The position numbers and the translations under genes are program-made. Shown here in pieces: positions 2,410 to 19,717 of a DNA stretch of 64,000 nt; within the stretch, counting starts at the first letter, position 1, and every line of letters begins with the position of its first letter. The stretch is from Gammaproteobacteria bacterium (GTDB lineage: Bacteria > Pseudomonadota > Gammaproteobacteria > Xanthomonadales > SZUA-36): positions 124,001 through 188,000 of the forward strand of contig JAJRRA010000048.1 of NCBI GenBank assembly GCA_024279945.1, in the 5' to 3' direction. Under the pieces are notes generated by a model. It searched no databases, was not told the origin of the DNA, and saw only the letters and a list, made by a program, of their open reading frames with translations.

Positions 2410-3414
2410 TCAGGCTGTTTCATCAGCCCAGGTGTTAATTTCGTGTTGCACCATCCAGGCATAAGTCTGCGCGAGACCTTCTTCAAGGCTCAATTCCGCC
2501 TCCCAGCCAAGCGCCCTCAATCGACTGATATCCAGCAGTTTACGGGGCGTTCCATCGGGCATGTCGGGATCAAACTGTATCTGGCCACTGAAGCCGCTGA
2601 TACCGGATATCAAGCCGGCCAATTGCGCAATACTCACATCCGTGCCGGTACCGACATTGATGTGTGAACAACGTGGCGTCGCCACCGACCAGTACTGTGC
2701 TGTTGTAAGATTCATGGTGTGCACACTTGCTGCAGCCATGTCATCCACGTGTAAAAACTCGCGCCGTGGGCGACCACTGCCCCACACCGTAACCGTCTCG
2801 CTGCCAGTTGCTACCGCAGTATAAAATTTTCGCAGCAGGGCCGGCAAAACATGGCCTGAATCCAGGTCGAAATTATCGTTAGGACCATACAGGTTGGTCG
2901 GCATCACGCTGCGGAAATCACAACCATACTGATGTCGATAGGATTCACACATTTTGATCCCGGCGATTTTCGCAACGGCATAGGCTTCGTTGCTCGGCTC
3001 CAGCGGCCCACTCATCAGTGCATCTTCAAGCATCGGCTGTTGCGCCAGGCGGGGGTAGATACAGGAACTGCCCAGGAACAGTAATCGCTCCACCCCGGCG
3101 CTAAACGCCGCATGAATAACATGGGTCTGGATTTGCAGGTTCTCGCGGATAAAATCGGCGGGCATCTCCATATTTGCCTTGATCCCACCGACTTTTGCAG
3201 CAGCCAGGTAAACCCGGTCGATATGCTCATCTGCAAAGAACGATTCAACCTCACTCTGTCGTGTCAGATCCAGTTCCTGGCGACTGCGGGTAATAATGCT
3301 GTGTTCCCGGAACATTTCCAGCTTCCGCACCAGCGCTGAGCCCACCATGCCGAGGTGCCCGGCAACATAAACCCGGCAGGGCCCGGCTGCGTTTGGGGAA
3401 GACGTCAGGCTCAC
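2410..3414 (-). CDS. fcl: GDP-L-fucose synthase
   Basis: 334 residues. NADPH-dependent 3,5-epimerase/4-reductase that turns GDP-4-keto-6-deoxy-mannose into GDP-L-fucose for surface glycans. An extended short-chain dehydrogenase fold is evident: the nucleotide loop [14 protein letters not shown] near residues 19-32, the LGSSCIYP motif with the catalytic Ser/Cys, and the YAVAKIAG active-site YxxxK. The ATG overlaps the gmd stop by four bases (ATGA), so the two are translationally coupled. Gmd makes the substrate of this enzyme, which supports the assignment. Confidence 0.95.
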
Positions 3415-4511
3415 TGGTCGCTTCTGTCCTGGTTAAGCAGGGCTTCTTCACGTGCCAACCGCAGATCCGTCACGACCATTTCCTCAACCAATTCATCAAA
3501 TGAAGTACTGGCTTCCCAACCCAGTAATTCACGCGCCAGGCTGGCGTCACCCAGCAGAGTCTCGACTTCCGTCGGCCGGTAATACCGGGGATCGATTTGC
3601 ACAACGACATCACCCGCCCGGAAATGCAGGTCCTCACGTTCAGACCAGGCCACGACCGCACACTCTTCCTGTCCACTGCCCTGCCACTCCAGTTCAAGGT
3701 CCATTCCAGCGGCCGCCGCATTGACGAAATCACGCACGGAATGCTGTTCCCCGCTGGCGATAACAAAATCCCGCGGTTCGTCGTGCTGGAGCATCAACCA
3801 CTGTGCTTCAACATAATCCCGGGCATGGCCCCAATCACGCCGGGCATCCAGATTGCCCAGGTAAATGCACTCATCCAGGCCCCAGCCGATCCGGGCCAGG
3901 CCACGCGTGATCTTACGCGTCACGAATGTTTCGCCACGCTTGGGCGATTCGTGATTGAAGAGGATGCCGTTGCAGGCAAACATGCCGTAAGACTCCCGGT
4001 AATTCACCACGATCCAGTAGGCATAAAGCTTGGCTACCGCGTAAGGTGAGCGCGGGTAGAAAGGTGTGGATTCATTTTGCGGCGCCTCCCGGACCTTGCC
4101 GAACAGTTCCGAGGTGGAGGCCTGGTAGAAGCGGCATTGTTTTTCCAGGCCCAGGTTCCTGATGGCCTCCAGTATCCTCAGGGTGCCTACTGCATCCGAT
4201 TCCGCCGTGTACTCAGGTTCTTCAAAGGAGACGGCCACGTGGCTCTGCGCAGCCAGGTTGTATATTTCATCGGGCTGGACACGCTGAATGGTTCGTTGCA
4301 GGCTGGAACTGTCCGTCATATCCCCATAATGCAGTCTGAACCTGGTGTTTTCGACATGAGGGTCTGCGTACAGATGGTCGATGCGTGCGGTATTCATCAA
4401 AGAGGCCCGACGTTTAATGCCATGTACTTCATAGCCCTTGCCGAGGAGAAATTCCGCCAGGTACGCTCCGTCCTGTCCCGTGATACCCGTAATCAGTGCT
4501 GTCTTGCTCAT
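3411..4511 (-). CDS. gmd: GDP-mannose 4,6-dehydratase
   Basis: 366 residues from the chosen start. Converts GDP-D-mannose to GDP-4-keto-6-deoxy-D-mannose, the first step to GDP-fucose and related deoxyhexoses. Seen: the Rossmann loop [19 protein letters not shown] at the N-terminus, the family-typical [12 protein letters not shown], the Ser/Thr region [11 protein letters not shown] and [10 protein letters not shown] with the catalytic Tyr/Lys. The frame is open further upstream (to 4613), but the ATG at 4511 is preceded by a strong GGAGGAG Shine-Dalgarno and begins exactly at the conserved [12 protein letters not shown]. Downstream fcl overlaps by four bases; ugd lies 28 bases upstream on the same strand. 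Confidence 0.96.
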
Positions 4512-4539
4512 ATTCTCCTCCCTGGAGACTGTCGCGTGT

Positions 4540-5862
4540 TTAGGGGCGACCGATGGCGTAGTAAGTGATGCCGCGCCGGCGAACAACTTCAGGCGACCAG
4601 ATATTGCGCCCATCGATGATCACCGCTTGATTCATGGATTCACACAAGCGATCAAAATCCGGTGCCCAGTAGAGCTTCCATTCAGTCATCAGCACCAGAG
4701 CATCAGCACCGGTCACAGCCTCGTATGGATCTTCAAAAGTCTCAAAACCACTCTGCCCCTGGAACAACAGACCGACTTCCCGGCCTGCTTCCGGGTCGTG
4801 AGCACGTATGCTCGAACCTGTGCCAAGACATGCTTTGATCAACTCGATGCTGGGTGCTTCGCGCATATCGTCGGTATTGGGCTTGAACGACAAGCCCCAA
4901 ACGGCCACCGACAAGCCGCTCATTTGCCCCTTGAAATGACGGTTCAGCAGTTCGAAAGGCTTGTGCTTCTGACGGTTATTGACCGCTTCTACCGCCTGGA
5001 GTAATTCTGCCTTGTAACCGTATTGCCGCGCAGTATTTTCCAATGCCCGAACATCCTTGGGAAAGCAGGAGCCCCCATAGCCCGCCCCCGGATAGATAAA
5101 AGAAAAACCGATACGCGGATCGGATCCAATGCCGTTGCGCACATGCTCGATATCGGCGCCCACTCGTTCGGCCACGTTGGACAGTTCGTTCATCAGGCTG
5201 ATCTTTGTTGCCAGCATGGCATTCGCAGCGTATTTGGTCAGCTCCGAAGATCGCACATCCATGCACAGCAGTTTTTCATGGTTGCGATTAAAAGGGGCAT
5301 AAAGCTCACGCAACAAAGCCTCGGCTTCTTCGCTGTCGACCCCGACAATAATCCGGTCGGGTTTCATGAAATCAGCAACTGCGGCACCTTCTTTCAGAAA
5401 TTCCGGGTTAGACGCAACCGTAAAATCGACATCCATCCCCCGATTCTGCAACTCTGTGGAAATGTATTCAGCAACTTTTTCACAGGTACCCACCGGCACA
5501 GTGGACTTGACCACGACCAAAAGCGGTTTCTCCATATGCAGCCCAATGGATTTTGCCACGGCCAGTACATGGCTTAGATCCGCCGATCCATCCTCGTCCG
5601 GAGGAGTACCCACGGCGATGAGCAGCACTTGCGCCTGCTCGATGGCCTCCGCGATTGATGCAGTGAAGATCAAACGCCCCTGATGGGAGTTTTCCTTGAG
5701 CATTTCCTCAAGCCCAGGCTCGAATATCGGTACGATGCCCTTGCACAGATTCTCAATGCGCTCTTCATTGATATCCATGCACACAACGTGGTGCCCGACT
5801 TCGGACAGTCCCGCACCGCTGACCAGTCCCACGTAACCACTTCCTATAATTGATATGCGCAC
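4540..5862 (-). CDS. ugd: UDP-glucose 6-dehydrogenase
   Basis: 440 residues. Oxidises UDP-glucose to UDP-glucuronate with two NAD+, for capsule or exopolysaccharide synthesis. Seen: the NAD-binding [19 protein letters not shown] at the N-terminus, the mid-protein substrate-binding stretch [19 protein letters not shown], the catalytic-Cys motif [16 protein letters not shown], and a C-terminal UDP-binding domain containing [17 protein letters not shown]. Length fits the bacterial single-domain-repeat enzymes. It is the first gene of a probable ugd-gmd-fcl operon that feeds nucleotide sugars to a polysaccharide; the glycosyltransferases are not in the window. Confidence 0.96.
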
Positions 5863-9045: not shown

Positions 9046-9914
9046 ATCCCATTATATCCGCACGTGGGCTTAGCAAACGTTTTGGCCGAACCCTTGCAGT
9101 TGATCACATCGATCTGAATATACCCCCGGGTCGCATCGTTGGCTTGATTGGACCCAATGGCGCAGGCAAAACAACGGCGATGAAGGCCATACTGGGCCTG
9201 GTTACCTTCGATGGCGAACTCAGCGTACTGGGTAAGAATCCGGCCCACGAACGTGCCGCCCTGATGGAAGAAGTGTGTTTTATTGCTGATGTAGCAGTCC
9301 TCCCGCGCTGGATCCGCGTATGGCAACTGATCGACCTGACCGAGCAGATCCACCCAAAATTTTCACGCGGAAAATGCCTCAAGTACCTGGCAGAGACCAA
9401 AGTCACACCCCAGCATAAAGTCAAGCAACTCTCCAAGGGCATGGTAGCTCAGTTGCATCTGGCTCTGGTCATGGCCATTGATGCCTCATTGCTGGTACTG
9501 GACGAACCGACGCTTGGACTGGATATCATTTACCGCAAACAGTTCTACACCAACCTGCTCAATGACTATTTTGACCAGGAACGCACCATTCTGATCACGA
9601 CCCACCAGGTTGAGGAAATCGAGCACATCCTGACTGACCTGATTTTCATACAGGATGGAAAAATCGTTCTGAAGGCAAGCATGGACGAAGTCCAGCAGCG
9701 TTATGCCGAGCTTATGGTATCGAAAGGTCAGGTCGAGCAGGCGCGTAAGCTCAGCCCAATCTACGAACGCGAACTCTTCGGTAAACATATTCTTCTTTAC
9801 GACAACGCTGACCGGGCAAAACTGACTGAACTCGGTGAAATTCATACACCCAGCATCGCCGACTTGTTCGTTGCCAAGATGAAGGGAAGCACAAGAGAAG
9901 GGATTAGTGTATGA
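9042..9914 (+). CDS. ABC transporter ATP-binding protein (YtrB-like)
   Basis: 290 residues. Cytoplasmic ATPase of an ABC system. Walker A GPNGAGKTT near residues 38-46; Walker B LLVLDEPTLGLD near 151-162; and the switch His in TTHQVEE. The signature is LSKGMVAQLHLAL, a variant of LSGGQ often seen in the YtrB/drug-efflux branch. About 75 residues follow the nucleotide-binding domain. It is coupled by overlaps to the regulator gene before it and the permease gene after it, so the three form a unit. The substrate cannot be told; this layout is typical of exporters responding to envelope stress or peptides. Confidence 0.93.
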   Translation: MNPIISARGLSKRFGRTLAVDHIDLNIPPGRIVGLIGPNGAGKTTAMKAILGLVTFDGELSVLGKNPAHERAALMEEVCFIADVAVLPRWIRVWQLIDLTEQIHPKFSRGKCLKYLAETKVTPQHKVKQLSKGMVAQLHLALVMAIDASLLVLDEPTLGLDIIYRKQFYTNLLNDYFDQERTILITTHQVEEIEHILTDLIFIQDGKIVLKASMDEVQQRYAELMVSKGQVEQARKLSPIYERELFGKHILLYDNADRAKLTELGEIHTPSIADLFVAKMKGSTREGISV

Positions 9915-10885: not shown

Positions 10886-11134
10886 TTAATCAGCGCTTTT
10901 GTCAAGGACGACTCGAACCATTTCGCCAACATTTTTCAGGTTGGCAACCTCACCGGTGTTGAATTTGACGCCCTTGAATGCCTTTTCTATAGCAACCAGT
11001 AACTGGATGTTGGTCAGAGAATCCCACTCGAGAATGTCATCAGCAACCGTATCCGGTCCGATCTCTATATCTTCGTCACCAAAGACATCACGGAAAATCT
11101 CCCTCAGGCGATTCCATACGGTTTCTTCATTCAT
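10886..11134 (-). CDS. Acyl carrier protein of the Dlt-like operon
   Basis: 82 residues, acidic. A small carrier that holds an acyl group as a thioester on phosphopantetheine. The attachment motif is WDSLTNIQLL with Ser39. It differs from the fatty-acid-synthesis AcpP (DSLDTVEL) and fits the stand-alone carriers paired with FkbH-type enzymes. Its start overlaps the end of the FkbH-like gene by eight bases, and it is the last gene of the operon. I infer that it carries the group made by the FkbH-like protein and presents it to the MBOAT protein on the cytoplasmic face, playing the part DltC plays in Gram-positive D-alanylation. Confidence 0.9.
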   Translation of the reverse strand: MNEETVWNRLREIFRDVFGDEDIEIGPDTVADDILEWDSLTNIQLLVAIEKAFKGVKFNTGEVANLKNVGEMVRVVLDKSAD

Positions 11135-12983
11135 GGTCGCAATCCTCGTTAACGGAAATCGTTACAGGAACCGGCTGATAGTCTTGCACCTTAATGCTCC
11201 ACTGGCTGACTCCCTGCCTGTCGCGGTCGATTAACTGAAAACCCAAATCAGAATACAGGGATTCCACCAGCCGGTTTTTTGCAGTCGGCATATAAATCCC
11301 ATGAACCTCTTCAAGCCCCCATTTTGTCACGGAATCAAACAGGTAATTTGCCAGCAAGCGCTCTACTCCGCGCTGAAATACACGGCAACTCATCAGCCAC
11401 AGGTCAATATGCAGTGTTCGCTCCTCAATACGGCCCGCCAGTACGCTAATCAGCCCGTTATCGCCAAACCGGTCAAGCAGACGCACACTGGCTGTGAATA
11501 CGTCCGGATTATCCATCAGTACTTCAATTTCTGATCTGTTCAGCCTCTTTGTGGTCAGATTGAACTGGTTGGTTTTATTAACCAATTGTGTGATTCGATC
11601 CAGATCCCGGATATTGAAACTGCAGATAGACGCCCGTTGCTCGAGTGACTGCAGGTAACCGTCATAGTCTGCCTGCTGATCCCGCAACTCCTCGCGCTGT
11701 CGGTTCTCATGATATTGATCGGTTTTTCTGGCATCTTCAGCGGTCAGACTGGCAATTTCCAGCCAGCCACATTGATCGAGCAGCACGGGGTATTCTGCCG
11801 GATCATCAGACAACTCAAGCACCTTGACCTGCGGCAGCACTTGCCGCACCAATTCCCGTTCAGCCGGATTATCATCGACAAAAACAAGGGCATCCAGGCC
11901 AATATTCAGCTCACTGGCAATCAGCCTGAGATTATCCGGCTTGGGATCCCAGTTGGCCTTGAACGAAACAAAATCGCTACGCTTCAGGACCATCCCCGGT
12001 AAGTTTTCAAACGGAGCGAGTGCATTTTCTTCTTCATTCTTGCTGCACACCGCCAGCAACATGCCCCTTTGTTTCAGACGTAAAAGGTACTCCTGAAAAA
12101 AACGGAATGATTCGCCCTCGGCGTCACCCGCTCCCACTTTCAATCCTTCCAGGCCATCGTCCCCAACCACACCACCCCAGAGTGTATGGTCGAGGTCCAG
12201 GACCAGGCATTTGGCCGTTCGGCCATACAGTGCGCCGATGAGGGCCGCAAGGTTCCTGATGAAGGGCACCAGGCAGTCGAAGGAAACAGGCTGCCGGGAA
12301 TGATGCCAGAACCTGCTGTCAAACCAGTTCAGCACACCATAAAAAGATGCCAGTGAAGCAATATCCAGGATGTGAACATAGGCGGGCGCCTTGTGATTCA
12401 GGCGCTCATTGACCCGGCGAATGAAGCTGTTGGCCTCCCAATTCAAGCGGCAATCAAGATTTCCCGTGGTACGCGTTGGCAGGGCATGAAGATTACTCAT
12501 GACGATTTCACAGTGGGTATTCCTGTGCAGTGATTCACACAGACCAAGCCAGTGATGGGAAATCTTATTAGCAATCGACTGGATGGCTTCGAGGGAATCA
12601 CCCGGCCGGGGCCATTCCGGGATATTGAAGGAATTGATCAGAAATACGGCAAGATCAGGACCGAAGGCGACCGTATCGCTGTCATTGCGTAGCATCTCGG
12701 AGACAAAGGAGTTGTAGTTACTGCTGAAAAGCCGGCAAGCAAGCCCAAGTGTCTCCAATTCAAGCTGGAGTGGATGCTCGAGAAAGTCTGTGGTGTAGCC
12801 ACCCAGTAGGGCGATCTTCAAGTCCATCGCCTTCGGGGCCGTGGTGTCTGCATTGATTTTACTGCGCAGACGGCACAGGGACTGGTAGCTGCTGTAGTCG
12901 GCGGTCATGCGGGCCTGTCGCAGTATGGCTGACAGGGCTTCAGGATGCCGGTCGTCTTTTATGAACTGCTTTATGTCCTTCAT
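11127..12983 (-). CDS. FkbH-like HAD-IIIC family protein (predicted acyl-ACP loading enzyme)
   Basis: 618 residues with three visible parts. Residues about 50-230 are an N-terminal SGNH-like region (LKIALLGGYTTDFL, LHALPTRTTGN). Residues about 257-420 are a HAD domain with the nucleophile motif VLDLDHTLWGG (Asp263, Asp265) and motif III/IV-like FVDDNPAERELVRQ. Residues about 470-600 are a GNAT-like C-terminal domain (VRLLDRFGDNGLISVL, WLMSCRVFQRGVERLL). This order is that of FkbH/OzmB-type proteins, which dephosphorylate 1,3-bisphosphoglycerate and load D-glyceryl onto an ACP. The neighbouring ACP gene overlaps by eight bases. The glyceryl substrate here is inference; the family also makes related C3 units. 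Confidence 0.9.
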   Translation of the reverse strand: MKDIKQFIKDDRHPEALSAILRQARMTADYSSYQSLCRLRSKINADTTAPKAMDLKIALLGGYTTDFLEHPLQLELETLGLACRLFSSNYNSFVSEMLRNDSDTVAFGPDLAVFLINSFNIPEWPRPGDSLEAIQSIANKISHHWLGLCESLHRNTHCEIVMSNLHALPTRTTGNLDCRLNWEANSFIRRVNERLNHKAPAYVHILDIASLASFYGVLNWFDSRFWHHSRQPVSFDCLVPFIRNLAALIGALYGRTAKCLVLDLDHTLWGGVVGDDGLEGLKVGAGDAEGESFRFFQEYLLRLKQRGMLLAVCSKNEEENALAPFENLPGMVLKRSDFVSFKANWDPKPDNLRLIASELNIGLDALVFVDDNPAERELVRQVLPQVKVLELSDDPAEYPVLLDQCGWLEIASLTAEDARKTDQYHENRQREELRDQQADYDGYLQSLEQRASICSFNIRDLDRITQLVNKTNQFNLTTKRLNRSEIEVLMDNPDVFTASVRLLDRFGDNGLISVLAGRIEERTLHIDLWLMSCRVFQRGVERLLANYLFDSVTKWGLEEVHGIYMPTAKNRLVESLYSDLGFQLIDRDRQGVSQWSIKVQDYQPVPVTISVNEDCDHE

Positions 12984-14221
12984 CTGCCTGGCGCTTCCTC
13001 GATTCCCTGCTGCGTTCCTGGTTTAGCTAATATTTTTTTGAGTTGCCGAATGACTTCCTCGCTCAGGCGCAGTGAACCACGATAAACCGTGTGCTCCACA
13101 TCATAGAACTCATCGCTGCTGGAAAATTCCCGGTAATCCAGAAAAGGCACATCACCGAGAGATCCCCTGACCAGGTCGAGATAAGCCCGGTAGTAAGCAT
13201 CATCAAACAGTTCACGGCTGAAATCTCTTTCAGGAAGGTTGATGACCATCAATCGAATTTGATGCATCCTGATAAATTTGGTGAGTCGATTTATACGGGC
13301 AGAAGTTTGCGCCTGTGTCTCCATAGGATTCCAGGAATGAACCGTTTCCCACCATGACCCGGGATCTGTTAACCAATCCTTAAGCCCCTCTATCCCGGGC
13401 CGCTCACTCAGGAGGTATTTGCTGGGTGAGATAAGCCAGGCCAGCACCTGTGAAAACTCAAAATCCAAAGCCCGCCGAAATCGTCCATTCCGAATAATCC
13501 GAACAACAAGCGGATGTTTGAACAGTTTTTCAAGCAGTCGTTGCTGCGCTGTTCTCTGGCTTATGTCAGCGTTTGGGTCAAGGTCCACAGCTTTCCCTTC
13601 TGCCAGCCAGTTGCTGAGCATTGCCAACAAGGCGGTGCGGAATCGCCCACTTTGCTTCTGAGTAAGAAATTTCAGCCTTGCATGGATTGAATCGATGAAC
13701 CCTTTGGGCGCCAGTTCAATGCCGGAATCCGTGTTGCGCGCTGAATAAAACGGACTGTAGCGATCAAGCCCCAGGCTGAACGGCCGTTGTGCGGGAATGT
13801 TGCCGATCACACGGGGGGAAACACCCAAAACCAGAACATCCGGCAAGGCATCGACACCATAGACCTTTTCAACATATTCCAATGATGCTGTAACATCATC
13901 AATGGTGCCGAGGCTGATTCCTCCCGGGTAGACTGAATATTGCGGGAAAGCTTTTTCAAACTGACGGTAAAGCAGGTTCTCCCGAACGGTCGATGGCCCG
14001 GCCAGCATAATTCTTTGTTTATCCGTACCGGTGAATCGCGACGGGAGCAGATAGCGCAGCCAATCCTCCTCCTTGAAAGGAAATGCATCCAGTTCCCGCT
14101 CGGCCCCGGACGACACCGAGATCATCCCAAACACGATGCACGCATACAGCAACACCCCGGTCGCCACAGCAGAGACCGCCAGCAAGGGTTTCTTAAAAAC
14201 TGGTGTAAATAAAGTCAACAT
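12980..14221 (-). CDS. SGNH-hydrolase-fold membrane-anchored acyltransferase (DltD-like)
   Basis: 413 residues. One N-terminal transmembrane helix (residues about 13-35) anchors an extracytoplasmic domain. Two catalytic motifs are visible: IMLAGPSTVREN with candidate nucleophile Ser77, and near the C-terminus FYDVEHTVYRGSLRLSE with candidate Asp374 and His377. These correspond to the Ser and D-x-x-H of DltD/AlgX-like SGNH proteins. DltD takes the acyl group from DltX and puts it on the polymer; I infer the same role here. The ATG lies inside the 3' end of the microprotein gene in another frame (29-base overlap), and its stop overlaps the next gene by four bases. Confidence 0.82.
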   Translation of the reverse strand: MLTLFTPVFKKPLLAVSAVATGVLLYACIVFGMISVSSGAERELDAFPFKEEDWLRYLLPSRFTGTDKQRIMLAGPSTVRENLLYRQFEKAFPQYSVYPGGISLGTIDDVTASLEYVEKVYGVDALPDVLVLGVSPRVIGNIPAQRPFSLGLDRYSPFYSARNTDSGIELAPKGFIDSIHARLKFLTQKQSGRFRTALLAMLSNWLAEGKAVDLDPNADISQRTAQQRLLEKLFKHPLVVRIIRNGRFRRALDFEFSQVLAWLISPSKYLLSERPGIEGLKDWLTDPGSWWETVHSWNPMETQAQTSARINRLTKFIRMHQIRLMVINLPERDFSRELFDDAYYRAYLDLVRGSLGDVPFLDYREFSSSDEFYDVEHTVYRGSLRLSEEVIRQLKKILAKPGTQQGIEEAPGR

Positions 14222-14315
14222 GGGTGCTTGAAAACAATACCAGGATGAAAATTAACAGTGCTGCAGCCAAAAGCTTTAACAGAATTCGGGTTCGAATTGA
14301 TGAGATGGCCTTCAT
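14193..14315 (-). CDS. 40-residue DltX-like membrane microprotein with C-terminal acyl-shuttle motif
   Basis: Reading: MKAISSIRTR, then a hydrophobic helix (residues about 11-28, ILLKLLAAALLIFILVLF), then SSTHVDFIYTSF and the stop. The basic N-terminus predicts an N-in, C-out topology, which places the last residues in the periplasm. The final six residues FIYTSF fit the F-x-Y-x-x-F hexapeptide at the end of DltX, where the Tyr carries the acyl group from the MBOAT to the DltD Ser; here that is Tyr37. The ATG shares four bases (ATGA) with the MBOAT stop and the 3' end overlaps the SGNH gene by 29 bases. Too short for ordinary gene callers. Confidence 0.85.
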   Translation of the reverse strand: MKAISSIRTRILLKLLAAALLIFILVLFSSTHVDFIYTSF

Positions 14316-15520
14316 GATCCTAACAAGTCACTGAACAGTTGCAGCAAGTGTGCCGTATCGAGTTGGAAAAATAAAAATGCGAAAGAGGCTGCATTGAACG
14401 TGATCACAATACCGACTGTTCTTGCCAGCCAGTGCTGGCGTAACTGCTTGAGCCGTTTTCGCCCCAGGCGCCGCGCAAGAAAATGGTCCCAACTGTGGTA
14501 AATCACCAGATAGATGCCGTGCACAAGGCCAAAGAACAGGAAGTTGATCGATGTACCATGCCAGATACCGGATACGATCATGGTCAGCATGATGGCCAGA
14601 TTGCCGGCAAGTACCGGATGGCTGCCAAGCCGTTTGCTGCTCAGTGCCCGTTTGTACGCAGGTGAAAATACATAATCCGTCAGCCACAGCGTCAGGCTAC
14701 GATGCTGGCGTAACCAGAAATCCGAAATATTCTGTGCGATGAACGGCTTGTTGAAATTTTCGGGGGGGCGTATGCCCATCAGGCTGCCAATACCGATGAC
14801 GATATCAACGTATCCGGAAAAATTCAGATAGAGGTAGAAAAAGAAGGCATACATCTGAACCAGCCAGGCCGTAAAACTCAGTTGCAATACATTGGTGTCC
14901 GCTTGCAGAGCAAGGCCGTTAATCCACCCAGCGAGCACATAGGCCTTGACCATACCGCCCAGTATCCGGAGTACGGCATCAAGGTGCGCCTCATAAGTCG
15001 GCTCAATTGCCTGCTTATGGCCATGCCACTGGTCGAAGTAATCCTGATAACGCATGATGGGCCCCATCATGAATGTGGTGAAATTCAGGCAGTAATTGAG
15101 ATAGGTCAGAAATTCCAGTTTCCGCAGAGTGTTGCTTTGCGCATCGACCAGGACATGAATGATTTTGAAGAATAAAAAGCTGAGCCCGATTGTACTCAGC
15201 GTGCTGCTCAATAATTCTGGTGGAAATATCCACTGCAAAATCTCGTAGTTGCGCAGGTAGATAAACAAGGCGACGAAAACCGGTAAGGTATACACAAGCC
15301 GCAGCGCCGGCCATTTGAGGTGAATGCGGACCAGAGCAAACCCAAGCAGGCAGAATGCAATAGTGGCAAGAGCGCTGATCGGCCCCAGCAGCCATCCGAT
15401 AAAAAAGAGATTGACGGACAAGAATACAAATTGCCGGAAGGCACCAGCCAGCAGCGACACCAACAGCACGGACATCATTGAAAATGACAGGTACTTTATT
15501 GAGAGAAGGGCAATGCTCAT
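14312..15520 (-). CDS. MBOAT family O-acyltransferase (DltB-like)
   Basis: 402 residues with about ten hydrophobic segments. Polytopic inner-membrane protein that takes an acyl group from a cytoplasmic carrier and passes it across the membrane. Family marks: YCLNFTTFMMGPIMRYQDY (residues about 143-161), YLYLNFSGYVDIVIGIGSLMG (230-249), NFNKPFIAQNISDFWLRQHRSLT (255-277), and the two conserved histidines in IWHG (His321) and GLVHG (His334, the usual catalytic one). Its own C-terminus (QLFSDLLGS) has no acyl-shuttle hexapeptide; that is on the next gene. It is the first gene of the five-gene operon. No clear Shine-Dalgarno precedes the ATG. Confidence 0.93.
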   Translation of the reverse strand: MSIALLSIKYLSFSMMSVLLVSLLAGAFRQFVFLSVNLFFIGWLLGPISALATIAFCLLGFALVRIHLKWPALRLVYTLPVFVALFIYLRNYEILQWIFPPELLSSTLSTIGLSFLFFKIIHVLVDAQSNTLRKLEFLTYLNYCLNFTTFMMGPIMRYQDYFDQWHGHKQAIEPTYEAHLDAVLRILGGMVKAYVLAGWINGLALQADTNVLQLSFTAWLVQMYAFFFYLYLNFSGYVDIVIGIGSLMGIRPPENFNKPFIAQNISDFWLRQHRSLTLWLTDYVFSPAYKRALSSKRLGSHPVLAGNLAIMLTMIVSGIWHGTSINFLFFGLVHGIYLVIYHSWDHFLARRLGRKRLKQLRQHWLARTVGIVITFNAASFAFLFFQLDTAHLLQLFSDLLGS

Positions 15521-15586
15521 ATGCTGGTGTAGTGTATCCCACGGCGTTCATCCACAACACTTTTACACTGTGTCAGCACCAAATAA

Positions 15587-15612
15587 AAACCCCGGCCAGA
15601 ATGCCGGGGTTT
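15587..15612. terminator. Rho-independent terminator downstream of the usp gene
   Basis: Perfect 10-base arms AAACCCCGGC/GCCGGGGTTT with a six-base loop. Read on the minus strand it lies 22 bases past the usp stop and ends in a T-rich run (TTTTTATTT), the classical form. It separates usp from the MBOAT operon promoter region at about 15521-15586. Confidence 0.85.
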
Positions 15613-16712: not shown

Positions 16713-18446
16713 ATGCAACCCTATTTTGAAAACATGGAGCGTTTCGGGAAGGCGCTCAAGCAAGGGCGCATCAAGCGTGCCGCTGCAAGTTCTGAACAAC
16801 TCAGACAAACCGAAAGGAAAATTGAACAACTCAAGAAAAATGTCGAAGAAGCCGGTTTCTCGACGGAAAAAATAAACCAGCGGGGTGTGATGACGGTGTG
16901 GCAACGGATCGAGTACCTGGTTGATTCCGGTACCTGGCATCCCCTGCACAGCACTTTCAACCCACTCGACAATGTTGAGGGCACGACCAATGTGGTGGAT
17001 GGCCTGGCCAAAATCGAAGGCCGCTGGGCCGTAGTTATCGGTTTTGATAATAAGGTGATGGCCGGCGCCTGGTTACCCGGCCAATCAGAAAATATTCTGC
17101 GGGTTACCGATCTGGCCAAACGCCTGAATATTCCCCTGGTCTGGCTGGTCAATTGCAGTGGCGCCAAGTTACCGGAGCAGGAAAAATTTTATGCCAATCG
17201 GCGCGGCGCCGGCACACCGTTCTATCGTCATGCGGAACTGGAGCAGGCAGGTATCCCGGTACTCGCAGGAATTTACGGCACCAATCCGGCAGGTGGCGGC
17301 TATCAAAGCATCAGCCCCACTATTCTGATCGCACACAAGAACGCCAACATGGCGGTTGGTGGTGTGGGGATTGTTTCCGGCATGGCGCCAAGAGGTGGTT
17401 TTGATGTCGAAATGCTGGAAGAACTCATTGAAAAAACCCGGGAATTCAGTGCCAGCCCGCCGGGAACCGTGGCGACACATTTCGACGCAACCGGATTTTT
17501 CACCGAGGTTTGTGAAGAAGAAACCGGTGTTCTGGACGGTCTCAAGAAATACATGAAGGCAATTCCTGCCTACAAACCCGAATTTTTCCGGGTCGCCACC
17601 CCAAAGGCACCGGAGTTTCCAGCCGCAGACCTGTACTCGCTGCTGCCCGCCAACCAGAAAGAAGTCTATAACTTCGACGAGGTGCTGGCTCGTCTGGTCG
17701 ATGGCAGCGAACACATGGAATTCCGCCCCGATTATGGCCCGGAAATGTATACCGGCCTGTGCAAGATCGATGGAATGCTGGTGGCCTGTATCGGCAATCG
17801 CCAGGGCTACCTGGGTAAAGGCTATCCCGAATATGCCGACTACCCGGGCATGGGTGGCAAACTCTACCGGCAGGGCCTGATTAAAATGAATGAGTTCGTC
17901 ACGCTGTGTGGCCGGGACCGCATACCGGTCATCTGGTTTCAGGACACCTCCGGTATCGATGTGGGAGATCTGGCGGAAAGAGCGGAACTGCTCGGTCTGG
18001 GGCAATCACTAATTTATTCCATCCAGCAAACCGATGTACCCATGATCCTGGTCGTGTTACGCAAAGGCAGCGCTGCAGCACATTATGTTCTGGGTGGTCC
18101 TACTGCGAACCGTCACAATGCATTCACGCTGGGTACACCGGCTACAGAAATCGCAGTCATGCATGGAGAGACAGCGGCCGTGGCCACCTATTCTCGGCGG
18201 GCGATGAAAGAAAAGGATGCCGGGCGGCCATTGGAACCGATTGTCGAGAAAATGAATGCGCTTGCGCAGCATTACCATGATCATTCGCAGCCGGATTATT
18301 GTGCCCAGTACGGACTGGTGGATGAAATTGTAAAACTGCAGGATCTGCGCAGCTATCTTCAGGCCTTCGCAGGCGCTGCTTACCAGAACCCGACATCCAT
18401 CTGCCCTCGCCACCATTTGATTTTGCCCCGCAGTATCAAGGGCTAG
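16713..18446 (+). CDS. gcdA: Glutaconyl-CoA decarboxylase alpha subunit (carboxyltransferase)
   Basis: 577 residues. Removes the carboxyl group of glutaconyl-CoA and passes it to biotin, giving crotonyl-CoA; it acts on the membrane as part of an ion-pumping complex. The sequence follows the GcdA family throughout: N-terminal YFENMERFGKALKQ, the crotonase-fold stretch GIYGTNPAGGGYQSISPTILIAHKNANMAVGG, GGKLYRQGLIKMNEFVTLC, QDTSGIDVGDLAERAELLGLGQSLIYSIQ, and a C-terminal AAYQNPTSICPRHHLILPRSI. General acyl-CoA carboxylase beta subunits lack these ends. Downstream genes encode the small, beta and biotin-carrier subunits, which confirms the decarboxylase pump. Confidence 0.92.
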   Translation: MQPYFENMERFGKALKQGRIKRAAASSEQLRQTERKIEQLKKNVEEAGFSTEKINQRGVMTVWQRIEYLVDSGTWHPLHSTFNPLDNVEGTTNVVDGLAKIEGRWAVVIGFDNKVMAGAWLPGQSENILRVTDLAKRLNIPLVWLVNCSGAKLPEQEKFYANRRGAGTPFYRHAELEQAGIPVLAGIYGTNPAGGGYQSISPTILIAHKNANMAVGGVGIVSGMAPRGGFDVEMLEELIEKTREFSASPPGTVATHFDATGFFTEVCEEETGVLDGLKKYMKAIPAYKPEFFRVATPKAPEFPAADLYSLLPANQKEVYNFDEVLARLVDGSEHMEFRPDYGPEMYTGLCKIDGMLVACIGNRQGYLGKGYPEYADYPGMGGKLYRQGLIKMNEFVTLCGRDRIPVIWFQDTSGIDVGDLAERAELLGLGQSLIYSIQQTDVPMILVVLRKGSAAAHYVLGGPTANRHNAFTLGTPATEIAVMHGETAAVATYSRRAMKEKDAGRPLEPIVEKMNALAQHYHDHSQPDYCAQYGLVDEIVKLQDLRSYLQAFAGAAYQNPTSICPRHHLILPRSIKG

Positions 18447-18485
18447 TGTCGGGTACTACACGAGGGATTATCACGAGGAATTTTC

Positions 18486-18611
18486 ATGCAGGAAGCAGTC
18501 CAGATATTCGTAAACGGCATTTCCGGCGTTTTTATCGGCCTGGCCGTGCTCTATGTGGTTATTAGAATAAACAAACTACTGGCCGGAAAGGAACCGGATA
18601 AAAAGGAATAA
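18486..18611 (+). CDS. Small membrane subunit of the decarboxylase (OadG/GcdD-like)
   Basis: 41 residues: MQEAVQIFVNGISGVFIG, then LAVLYVVIRINKLL and a charged tail. It is one transmembrane helix followed by a short basic/acidic cytoplasmic end, like the gamma/delta subunits of sodium-pumping decarboxylases that hold the complex together. The ATG follows an AGGAATTTTC sequence that could act as ribosome binding site, and its stop is two bases before the ATG of the beta subunit. It lies between alpha and beta, as expected. It lacks the long Pro/Ala-rich tail and Zn-binding His of full-length OadG. Confidence 0.75.
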   Translation: MQEAVQIFVNGISGVFIGLAVLYVVIRINKLLAGKEPDKKE

Positions 18612-18613
18612 TA

Positions 18614-19717
18614 ATGGTATTTTTTAACAACATGGGCTTGCTGGCCGTCACCCCCGGCATGGTTTTCATGTGGATAATCGGACTGATTCTGATCTACCTG
18701 GCGATTACACGGCAATACGAGCCTCTGCTGCTGTTGCCAATCGGCTTTGGCATCATCCTCACCAACCTGCCCTTGAGCATGTTAATGGAACCGGGCGAAG
18801 GCCTGCTCTGGCGCTTCTATCATTATGGTATTGAATGGGAAGTTATCCCCCCGCTGATTTTCCTGGGGCTGGGTGCACTGACCGATTTTAGCGCCTTGCT
18901 GTCACAACCTCGCTTGATTTTTCTCGGCGCGGCGGCACAGGTGGGCGTCTACGTCACATTTTTTATTGCTTACTCCATGGGTTTCAGCCTGCAAGAGGCG
19001 GCAACCATCGGCATTATCGGTGGCGCAGACGGTCCGACAACCATCTATCTCGCCGCCAAGCTTGCGCCACAACTACTGGGTGCAACTGCGGTGGCCGCCT
19101 ATTCCTATATGGCACTGGTGCCGTTGATCATGCCCCCTATCATGAAACTGCTGACGACTGATGCCGAACGCAAAATCAGGATGAAAAAAGGCCGCAAGGT
19201 CTCCGCCCGGGAAAAACTGTATTTCCCGATCATCGCCGCCATGGTGATTATCCTGCTGGTGCCGGCCTCAGCGCCACTGATCGCGATGTTCATGATGGGT
19301 AACCTCTTCCGTGAATCCAAAGTCGTTGAGCGCCTGAATGAAACTGCGCAGAACTCCCTGATGAATATCGTTACCATATTCCTCGGTGTCAGCATCGGGG
19401 CAACCATGAATGCAGAGGTATTTCTACGCAAGGAAGTGATTTTCATCTTCTTTTTAGGTTTATTTGCATTCATGATCAGCACCGCAAGCGGTATATTGCT
19501 GGCCAAATTCATGAACCTGTTCACCAGCAATAAAATCAATCCCCTGGTTGGCGCGGCAGGTGTTTCCGCCGTACCCATGGCGGCACGCGTGGTACAGAAA
19601 GTCGGGGCCGCTGCAGATAAACGTAATTATTTACTCATGTTTGCAATGGGGCCCAACATCGCCGGGGTTATCGGCACCGTGATTGCCGCCGGCATATTCA
19701 TATCAATATTGAAATAG
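18614..19717 (+). CDS. gcdB: Sodium ion-translocating decarboxylase beta subunit
   Basis: 367 residues, about ten membrane segments. Decarboxylates carboxybiotin and couples this to ion export. Two family hallmarks are intact: IGIIGGADGPTTIYLAAKLAPQLLG (with the ion-site Asp139) and NPLVGAAGVSAVPMAARVVQK near the C-terminus. A ribosome site AAGGAATAAT precedes the ATG. Sodium is the usual coupling ion of this family; the sequence alone cannot exclude protons. It is named GcdB from its partners, since the OadB, MmdB and GcdB sequences are hard to tell apart. Confidence 0.93.
   Translation: MVFFNNMGLLAVTPGMVFMWIIGLILIYLAITRQYEPLLLLPIGFGIILTNLPLSMLMEPGEGLLWRFYHYGIEWEVIPPLIFLGLGALTDFSALLSQPRLIFLGAAAQVGVYVTFFIAYSMGFSLQEAATIGIIGGADGPTTIYLAAKLAPQLLGATAVAAYSYMALVPLIMPPIMKLLTTDAERKIRMKKGRKVSAREKLYFPIIAAMVIILLVPASAPLIAMFMMGNLFRESKVVERLNETAQNSLMNIVTIFLGVSIGATMNAEVFLRKEVIFIFFLGLFAFMISTASGILLAKFMNLFTSNKINPLVGAAGVSAVPMAARVVQKVGAAADKRNYLLMFAMGPNIAGVIGTVIAAGIFISILK

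Follow-up and report, generated by a model that had tools for sequence, protein, structure and literature searches.

An FkbH-linked, Dlt-like operon with a separate tyrosine-motif microprotein in a gammaproteobacterium

Which acyl group does a Dlt-like export machine carry when its operon encodes FkbH in place of DltA? This question is raised by a stretch of DNA from a gammaproteobacterium (Xanthomonadales; SZUA-36; contig JAJRRA010000048.1 of assembly GCA_024279945.1, positions 124,001 to 188,000; hereafter the window, 64,000 nucleotides in all), in which five minus-strand open reading frames (ORFs) at 10886–15520 encode, in this order, a membrane-bound O-acyltransferase (MBOAT), a membrane microprotein (X), an SGNH protein, an FkbH-type protein and an acyl carrier protein (ACP). 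A preliminary description, made from the sequence alone, had read these genes as a Dlt-like envelope acylation operon, and the ORF positions and the overlaps between neighbouring genes (4, 29, 4 and 8 bases) agree with the five genes it had placed there. Family scans matched the MBOAT (PF03062, E-value 3.7e-16), the FkbH protein (FkbH_N, 8.2e-11; TIGR01686, 308 bits against a cut-off of 146.65) and the ACP (PP-binding, 1.2e-8). X and the SGNH protein had zero matches in the Pfam and NCBIfam scans and were therefore assessed by conservation. The operon is real, conserved and recurrent, and its five genes were named correctly, the SGNH-like identity being the most tentative. We consider it reasonably probable that it encodes an FkbH-fed, Dlt-like machine for carrier-dependent acyl export and transfer, which would place glyceryl on an envelope acceptor. 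This reading draws on gene content, conservation, catalytic-type residues, the kinship between the MBOAT and DltB, and the finding that MBOATs without the motif are paired with microproteins; that the group is glyceryl and travels by a shuttle we infer from the protein families.

By scanning contigs with the MBOAT, we found the complete operon with its gene order unchanged, as the preliminary description had proposed to look for, on a Methylococcaceae contig (L064). Identities between the window and L064 were 80, 67.5, 65, 74 and 78% for the five genes, and dN/dS lay between 0.09 and 0.16 across all of them, indicating purifying selection. X has a positively charged N-terminus, a single hydrophobic helix and a C-terminal FIYTSF that includes Tyr37, the presumed acyl carrier; its counterpart in L064 is also 40 residues long and ends in FIYTGF (dN/dS 0.16). 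In the 29 X codons outside the overlaps, pS was 0.64 versus a pN of 0.22 and differences fell mostly at third codon positions, so X is a real gene. Pfam DltX (PF12459) did not match X at E<=10, a 40-residue query having little power; S. aureus and Enterococcus DltX, run as controls, scored 2e-14 and 9e-16, and the same model missed all Gram-negative microproteins tried.

We searched about 125 loci for [FLVIM]xYxx[FM] at the C-terminus, including that of short ORFs of 30–75 residues. Within the collected loci, 18 of 6265 distinct short ORFs carried the motif and 14 of the 18 were hydrophobic. All but one of these 14 lay in loci of motif-less MBOATs, the exception being the tail of a truncated fused MBOAT. 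Among the MBOATs compared, full-length proteins of at least about 460 residues themselves end in the motif, which the shorter ones lack; the apparent exception, L084, reflects an ORF start placed too far upstream, covering the microprotein. Homologous operons keep the motif, as a separate ORF in L064 and the other split loci and fused to the MBOAT in the rest, and the reading thereby withstood the refuting condition that the preliminary description had set for such operons. Tyrosine was the sole invariant residue in an alignment of nine such microproteins. Motif-less MBOATs for which we detected no microprotein partner came from a Lactobacillus locus (L101), from L077 and from fragments at contig ends. 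The Lactobacillus locus is a plasmid dlt operon (L101 2088–7365), in which the motif search found no DltX-like ORF. A separate microprotein had been called unusual in a Gram-negative: its presence stands, but it is not unique to this operon, since enterobacterial dlt loci and L072, L078, L084, L089 and L094 have one too.

The window MBOAT lacks a C-terminal FxYxxF of its own and aligned to S. thermophilus DltB at 2.1e-34, with His273, His321 and His334 corresponding to DltB His289, His336 and His349. Judged by this alignment, the catalytic-type histidines are His273 and His321; of the pair named earlier (His321/His334) the former was therefore retained and the latter replaced by His273. In a maximum-likelihood tree, from which the columns of the C-terminal extension were excluded, the window and L064 MBOATs fell within a set of 15 rows (98/88) together with DltB of Gram-positives, the Dlt proteins of enterobacteria and four split MBOATs (L072, L084, L089 and L094), while 31 of the 33 fused-motif MBOATs fell outside it. 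The window MBOAT thus groups with DltB, not with the fused-motif MBOATs. The two fused proteins inside the set, those of L093 and L073, are FkbH-linked and adjoin the window/L064 pair (97/71, an unstarred branch), and this position provides a gene-fusion link between the MBOAT and the microprotein. On this tree, the split or fused state requires two changes and the association with FkbH nine.

The residues claimed for the SGNH protein (Ser77 in GPST and Asp374-x-x-His377) and for the phosphopantetheine site of the ACP (Ser39 in EWDSL) are all where they had been described, and both SGNH motifs are conserved in L064. When a profile of these two SGNH sequences was compared with one built from 18 further SGNH proteins of the collected loci, the match extended over 283 columns with an E-value of 9.7e-8 (probability 94.3) and aligned the Ser and DxxH regions. 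Against 369 genomes of the class, the window SGNH protein gave two weak partial matches and nothing else, and it had no match to DltD (PF04914), a model that scored S. aureus DltD at 7e-103 and an enterobacterial DltD at 1e-22.

The FkbH protein contains DLDHT (Asp263, Asp265, Thr267) and Cys533 in SCRV, and these four positions, along with other residues, were invariant in 21 of 21 aligned FkbH proteins from the loci collected here. ORF and family scans found FkbH and ACP in the operon and no adenylation domain of the DltA type, in line with the earlier proposal that FkbH replaces DltA. As the FkbH family forms glyceryl-S-ACP (PMC7489565), the transferred group is probably glyceryl, which also bears out the suggestion that it is not alanine. 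The methoxymalonyl pathway was rejected as a candidate, since the operon encodes neither the dehydrogenases nor the methyltransferase of that pathway.

In the mechanism we propose, FkbH would take the glyceryl moiety of 1,3-bisphosphoglycerate, strip its phosphate and load D-glyceryl as a thioester on the Ser39 phosphopantetheine of the operon ACP, whose arm would then enter the DltB-like MBOAT from the cytoplasmic side. There, His321, with His273, would hand the acyl group over to X, whose Tyr37 would lie on the far side of the cytoplasmic membrane. The next station would be Ser77 in the SGNH protein, itself anchored in the membrane, and the last a hydroxyl group on some envelope molecule, for which lipopolysaccharide, exopolysaccharide or another glycan are candidates. 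A relay from MBOAT through Tyr to Ser has been described for Dlt and demonstrated for PatA/PatB (PMC12148441).

The cassette of FkbH, ACP, MBOAT and SGNH occurs far more widely than the window operon. Among 80 genomes chosen solely for a DltB-like MBOAT, with FkbH matches and distances counted by hand, 19 of 55 FkbH matches lay within about 6 kb of an MBOAT, where a rough estimate gives about one or fewer by chance. Complete or near-complete sets were present in many Pseudomonadota, mostly with the motif fused; a separate microprotein accompanies FkbH in L064, L072, L084, L089 and L094. On pSymB of strains of the model soil bacterium Sinorhizobium meliloti, four adjacent genes encode MBOAT, SGNH, ACP and FkbH, the SGNH protein being recognised by profile under an existing annotation as a TonB-dependent receptor. 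In S. meliloti 1021 the FkbH of this operon is present as two ORFs (L081 8341–10403), in strain ml46 (L100) as a single one. SMb20651 was considered as the L100 ACP and dropped, as no title or abstract linking it to FkbH was found; nor did we find a study of this pSymB operon in the literature.

Some loci with a separate microprotein have other neighbours. At L076 7937–14163, a DltB-length MBOAT, a 47-residue microprotein ending in FRYAGF and an SGNH-like protein have as neighbours, by eye, an enzyme of AMP-binding type and a protein resembling decarboxylases, possibly pointing to another acyl group. At L078 7227–9836, a split MBOAT, an SGNH-like protein and an FIYVSF microprotein lie in what by eye is a glycan cluster, with neither FkbH nor a carrier protein seen nearby. 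The enterobacterial locus L079 (7174–11225) encodes DltD, a 40-residue microprotein ending in QFEYQQF, DltB, an adenylation-like enzyme and a small carrier protein; operons like it, in the order dltD-X-B-A-C, are found in L034, L035 and L038–L040. This type is a full Gram-negative Dlt set whose microprotein escapes Pfam DltX, so a separate microprotein is not in itself what is new in the window operon.

How does the operon relate to characterised systems? With Dlt, the pathway by which Gram-positive bacteria D-alanylate their teichoic acids, it shares an MBOAT of DltB length and group, a separate motif microprotein, a carrier protein and a putative SGNH-type transferase, all in one operon. It differs in having FkbH rather than DltA, in an X outside PF12459 and an SGNH protein outside PF04914, and in its host, which encodes LpxC and is therefore a lipid A-making Gram-negative. 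By curated family cut-offs the operon is not Dlt, since its MBOAT falls below the DltB cut-off (TIGR04091, 198.6 bits against 375; S. aureus DltB scores 522) and the DltX, DltD and DltA families are absent, though it is built to work like Dlt. In Bordetella, the dra locus adds D-alanine (PMC4448142). PatA/PatB, which O-acetylates peptidoglycan, and AlgI-type systems have in common with the window operon the MBOAT, the putative SGNH protein and the FxYxxF tyrosine carrier, but there the motif is fused and the PatA donor is acetyl-CoA, whereas the window operon encodes its microprotein separately and has a carrier protein as well. A 2025 paper on PatA/PatB describes non-Dlt MBOAT/SGNH pathways as having neither a carrier protein nor a DltX-like microprotein (PMC12148441); loci of the window type, with both present and DltA absent and found in bacteria that make lipid A, are exceptions to that statement. 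Glyceryl-loading FkbH/ACP modules of tetronate and methoxymalonyl pathways resemble the window pair in FkbH, a free-standing ACP and the conserved DLDxT and Cys, but the window operon has no ketosynthase, dehydrogenases or methyltransferase and joins the pair to a putative membrane acyl exporter. The S. meliloti operon has the same four enzyme types in adjacent genes; unlike in the window operon, the motif (FLYQGF) is part of the MBOAT itself and a separate microprotein is absent. In a literature search that covered subscription journals thinly, we found no report joining FkbH with an MBOAT, an SGNH protein or envelope glycans.

Several observations weigh against the proposed glyceryl exporter. 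Its case is computational for every member, and the SGNH assignment, drawn from a remote profile match and motifs, is the weakest of the five: an AlphaFold model from the two-sequence alignment was of low confidence (pLDDT 45), and a fold search with it gave no match at E <0.001, TesA-type SGNH proteins leading the list of non-significant matches, which also included PatB. X shares its last nine codons with the SGNH gene, and the conservation of the motif at that place is therefore partly due to shared constraint. A close FkbH was present in none of the 398 other genomes of the host's order, making the operon sporadic, and two genus-mates, both with incomplete genomes, did not yield it. The exported group may also differ between loci, because other FkbH-MBOAT clusters encode additional enzymes: MaoC-like and SDR domains in L084 (separate genes) and in L085, L090 and L093 (fused), and a methyltransferase and/or VOC (PF13669) gene near FkbH in L089, L128, L129 and S. 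meliloti L100. In the former four, glyceryl-ACP may be converted to another acyl group; the bryostatin loading module turns glyceryl into lactyl by comparable activities, a point on which we found no paper. These clusters are what would favour the same machine exporting a different group in the window operon, the FkbH-loaded glyceryl being altered to a lactyl, methylated or epimerised form by an enzyme encoded elsewhere. We regard this as unlikely, given that the window and L064 operons have none of those enzymes and their five genes are self-sufficient for glyceryl.

It is rather improbable, in our estimate, that FkbH-ACP and MBOAT-X-SGNH are functionally separate, with the MBOAT using acetyl-CoA, as PatA does (PMC12148441), and glyceryl-ACP supplying a sugar acyltransferase in the cytoplasm or being used for a small molecule. 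Polyketide loci, such as that of Methylosinus (L127), do contain FkbH-ACP pairs too; the window pair, however, has no further acyltransferase or polyketide synthase gene beside it, its MBOAT clusters with carrier-dependent DltB and not with the fused-motif type, and the gene combination recurs in unrelated loci with differing gene orders. Instead of a polymer, the acceptor might be some lipid or a small molecule that is secreted: the window operon stands alone, outside any glycan cluster, and an MBOAT has been proposed to acylate the sugar of suomilide (PMC13122637). To this we assign a low probability, as those MBOAT-SGNH pairs that have been characterised modify polymers of the envelope (PMC12148441), some FkbH-MBOAT relatives lie near glycan-type genes (a sulfotransferase in L129; L072 by eye) and genes for GDP-fucose and UDP-glucuronate lie 5–8 kb from the window operon.

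Table 1. Coordinates of the operon genes and of a neighbouring hairpin in the window.
Feature	Position	Strand	Remarks
DltB-like MBOAT acyltransferase	14312-15520	-	402 aa; PF03062, alignment to DltB, tree
DltX-like membrane microprotein X	14193-14315	-	40 aa; motif and conservation
Membrane-anchored SGNH/DltD-like transferase (putative)	12980-14221	-	413 aa; remote profile match and motifs
FkbH-type HAD-IIIC protein	11127-12983	-	618 aa; TIGR01686, FkbH_N
Acyl carrier protein (ACP)	10886-11134	-	82 aa; PP-binding match
GC-rich hairpin, then T-rich tract	15581-15610	-	between usp gene and operon; by-eye reading, unconfirmed

Promoter and terminator scans of the window returned nothing exceeding chance; the hairpin in Table 1, by eye a possible terminator of the upstream usp gene, was not listed by the terminator scan. 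On the operon's strand, genes for GDP-fucose synthase, GDP-mannose dehydratase and UDP-glucose dehydrogenase occupy 2410–5862. Genes for a carboxyltransferase and the beta subunit of a sodium-pumping decarboxylase lie near the operon at 16713–19717. In L064, the operon is followed by a gene for an AlgX-like SGNH protein (PF16822; 6119–7450), which has no counterpart at that place in the window. Mutually similar transposase-like fragments, identified by eye on both sides of the L064 operon (810–1037 and 9378–9722), suggest mobility.

Taken beyond the window, we think it on balance probable that FkbH-made glyceryl-ACP is a third donor class for MBOAT-SGNH systems, beside D-alanyl-DltC and acyl-CoA, exported onto surface molecules of many Gram-negatives, at some loci apparently after tailoring by MaoC/SDR, methyltransferase or VOC enzymes, and handed over by a tyrosine carrier that is either separate or fused. 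If so, these genes would offer a candidate route to glycerate esters like that of gellan, which is of the L form (PMC9104527). We found no link between gellan and these genes, and a lead in this direction went unconfirmed, the MBOAT of a Sphingomonas plasmid having no adjoining FkbH. Glycerate derived from glycolysis would then be a donor for surface modification, and split and fused tyrosine carriers would become comparable within a single phylogeny.

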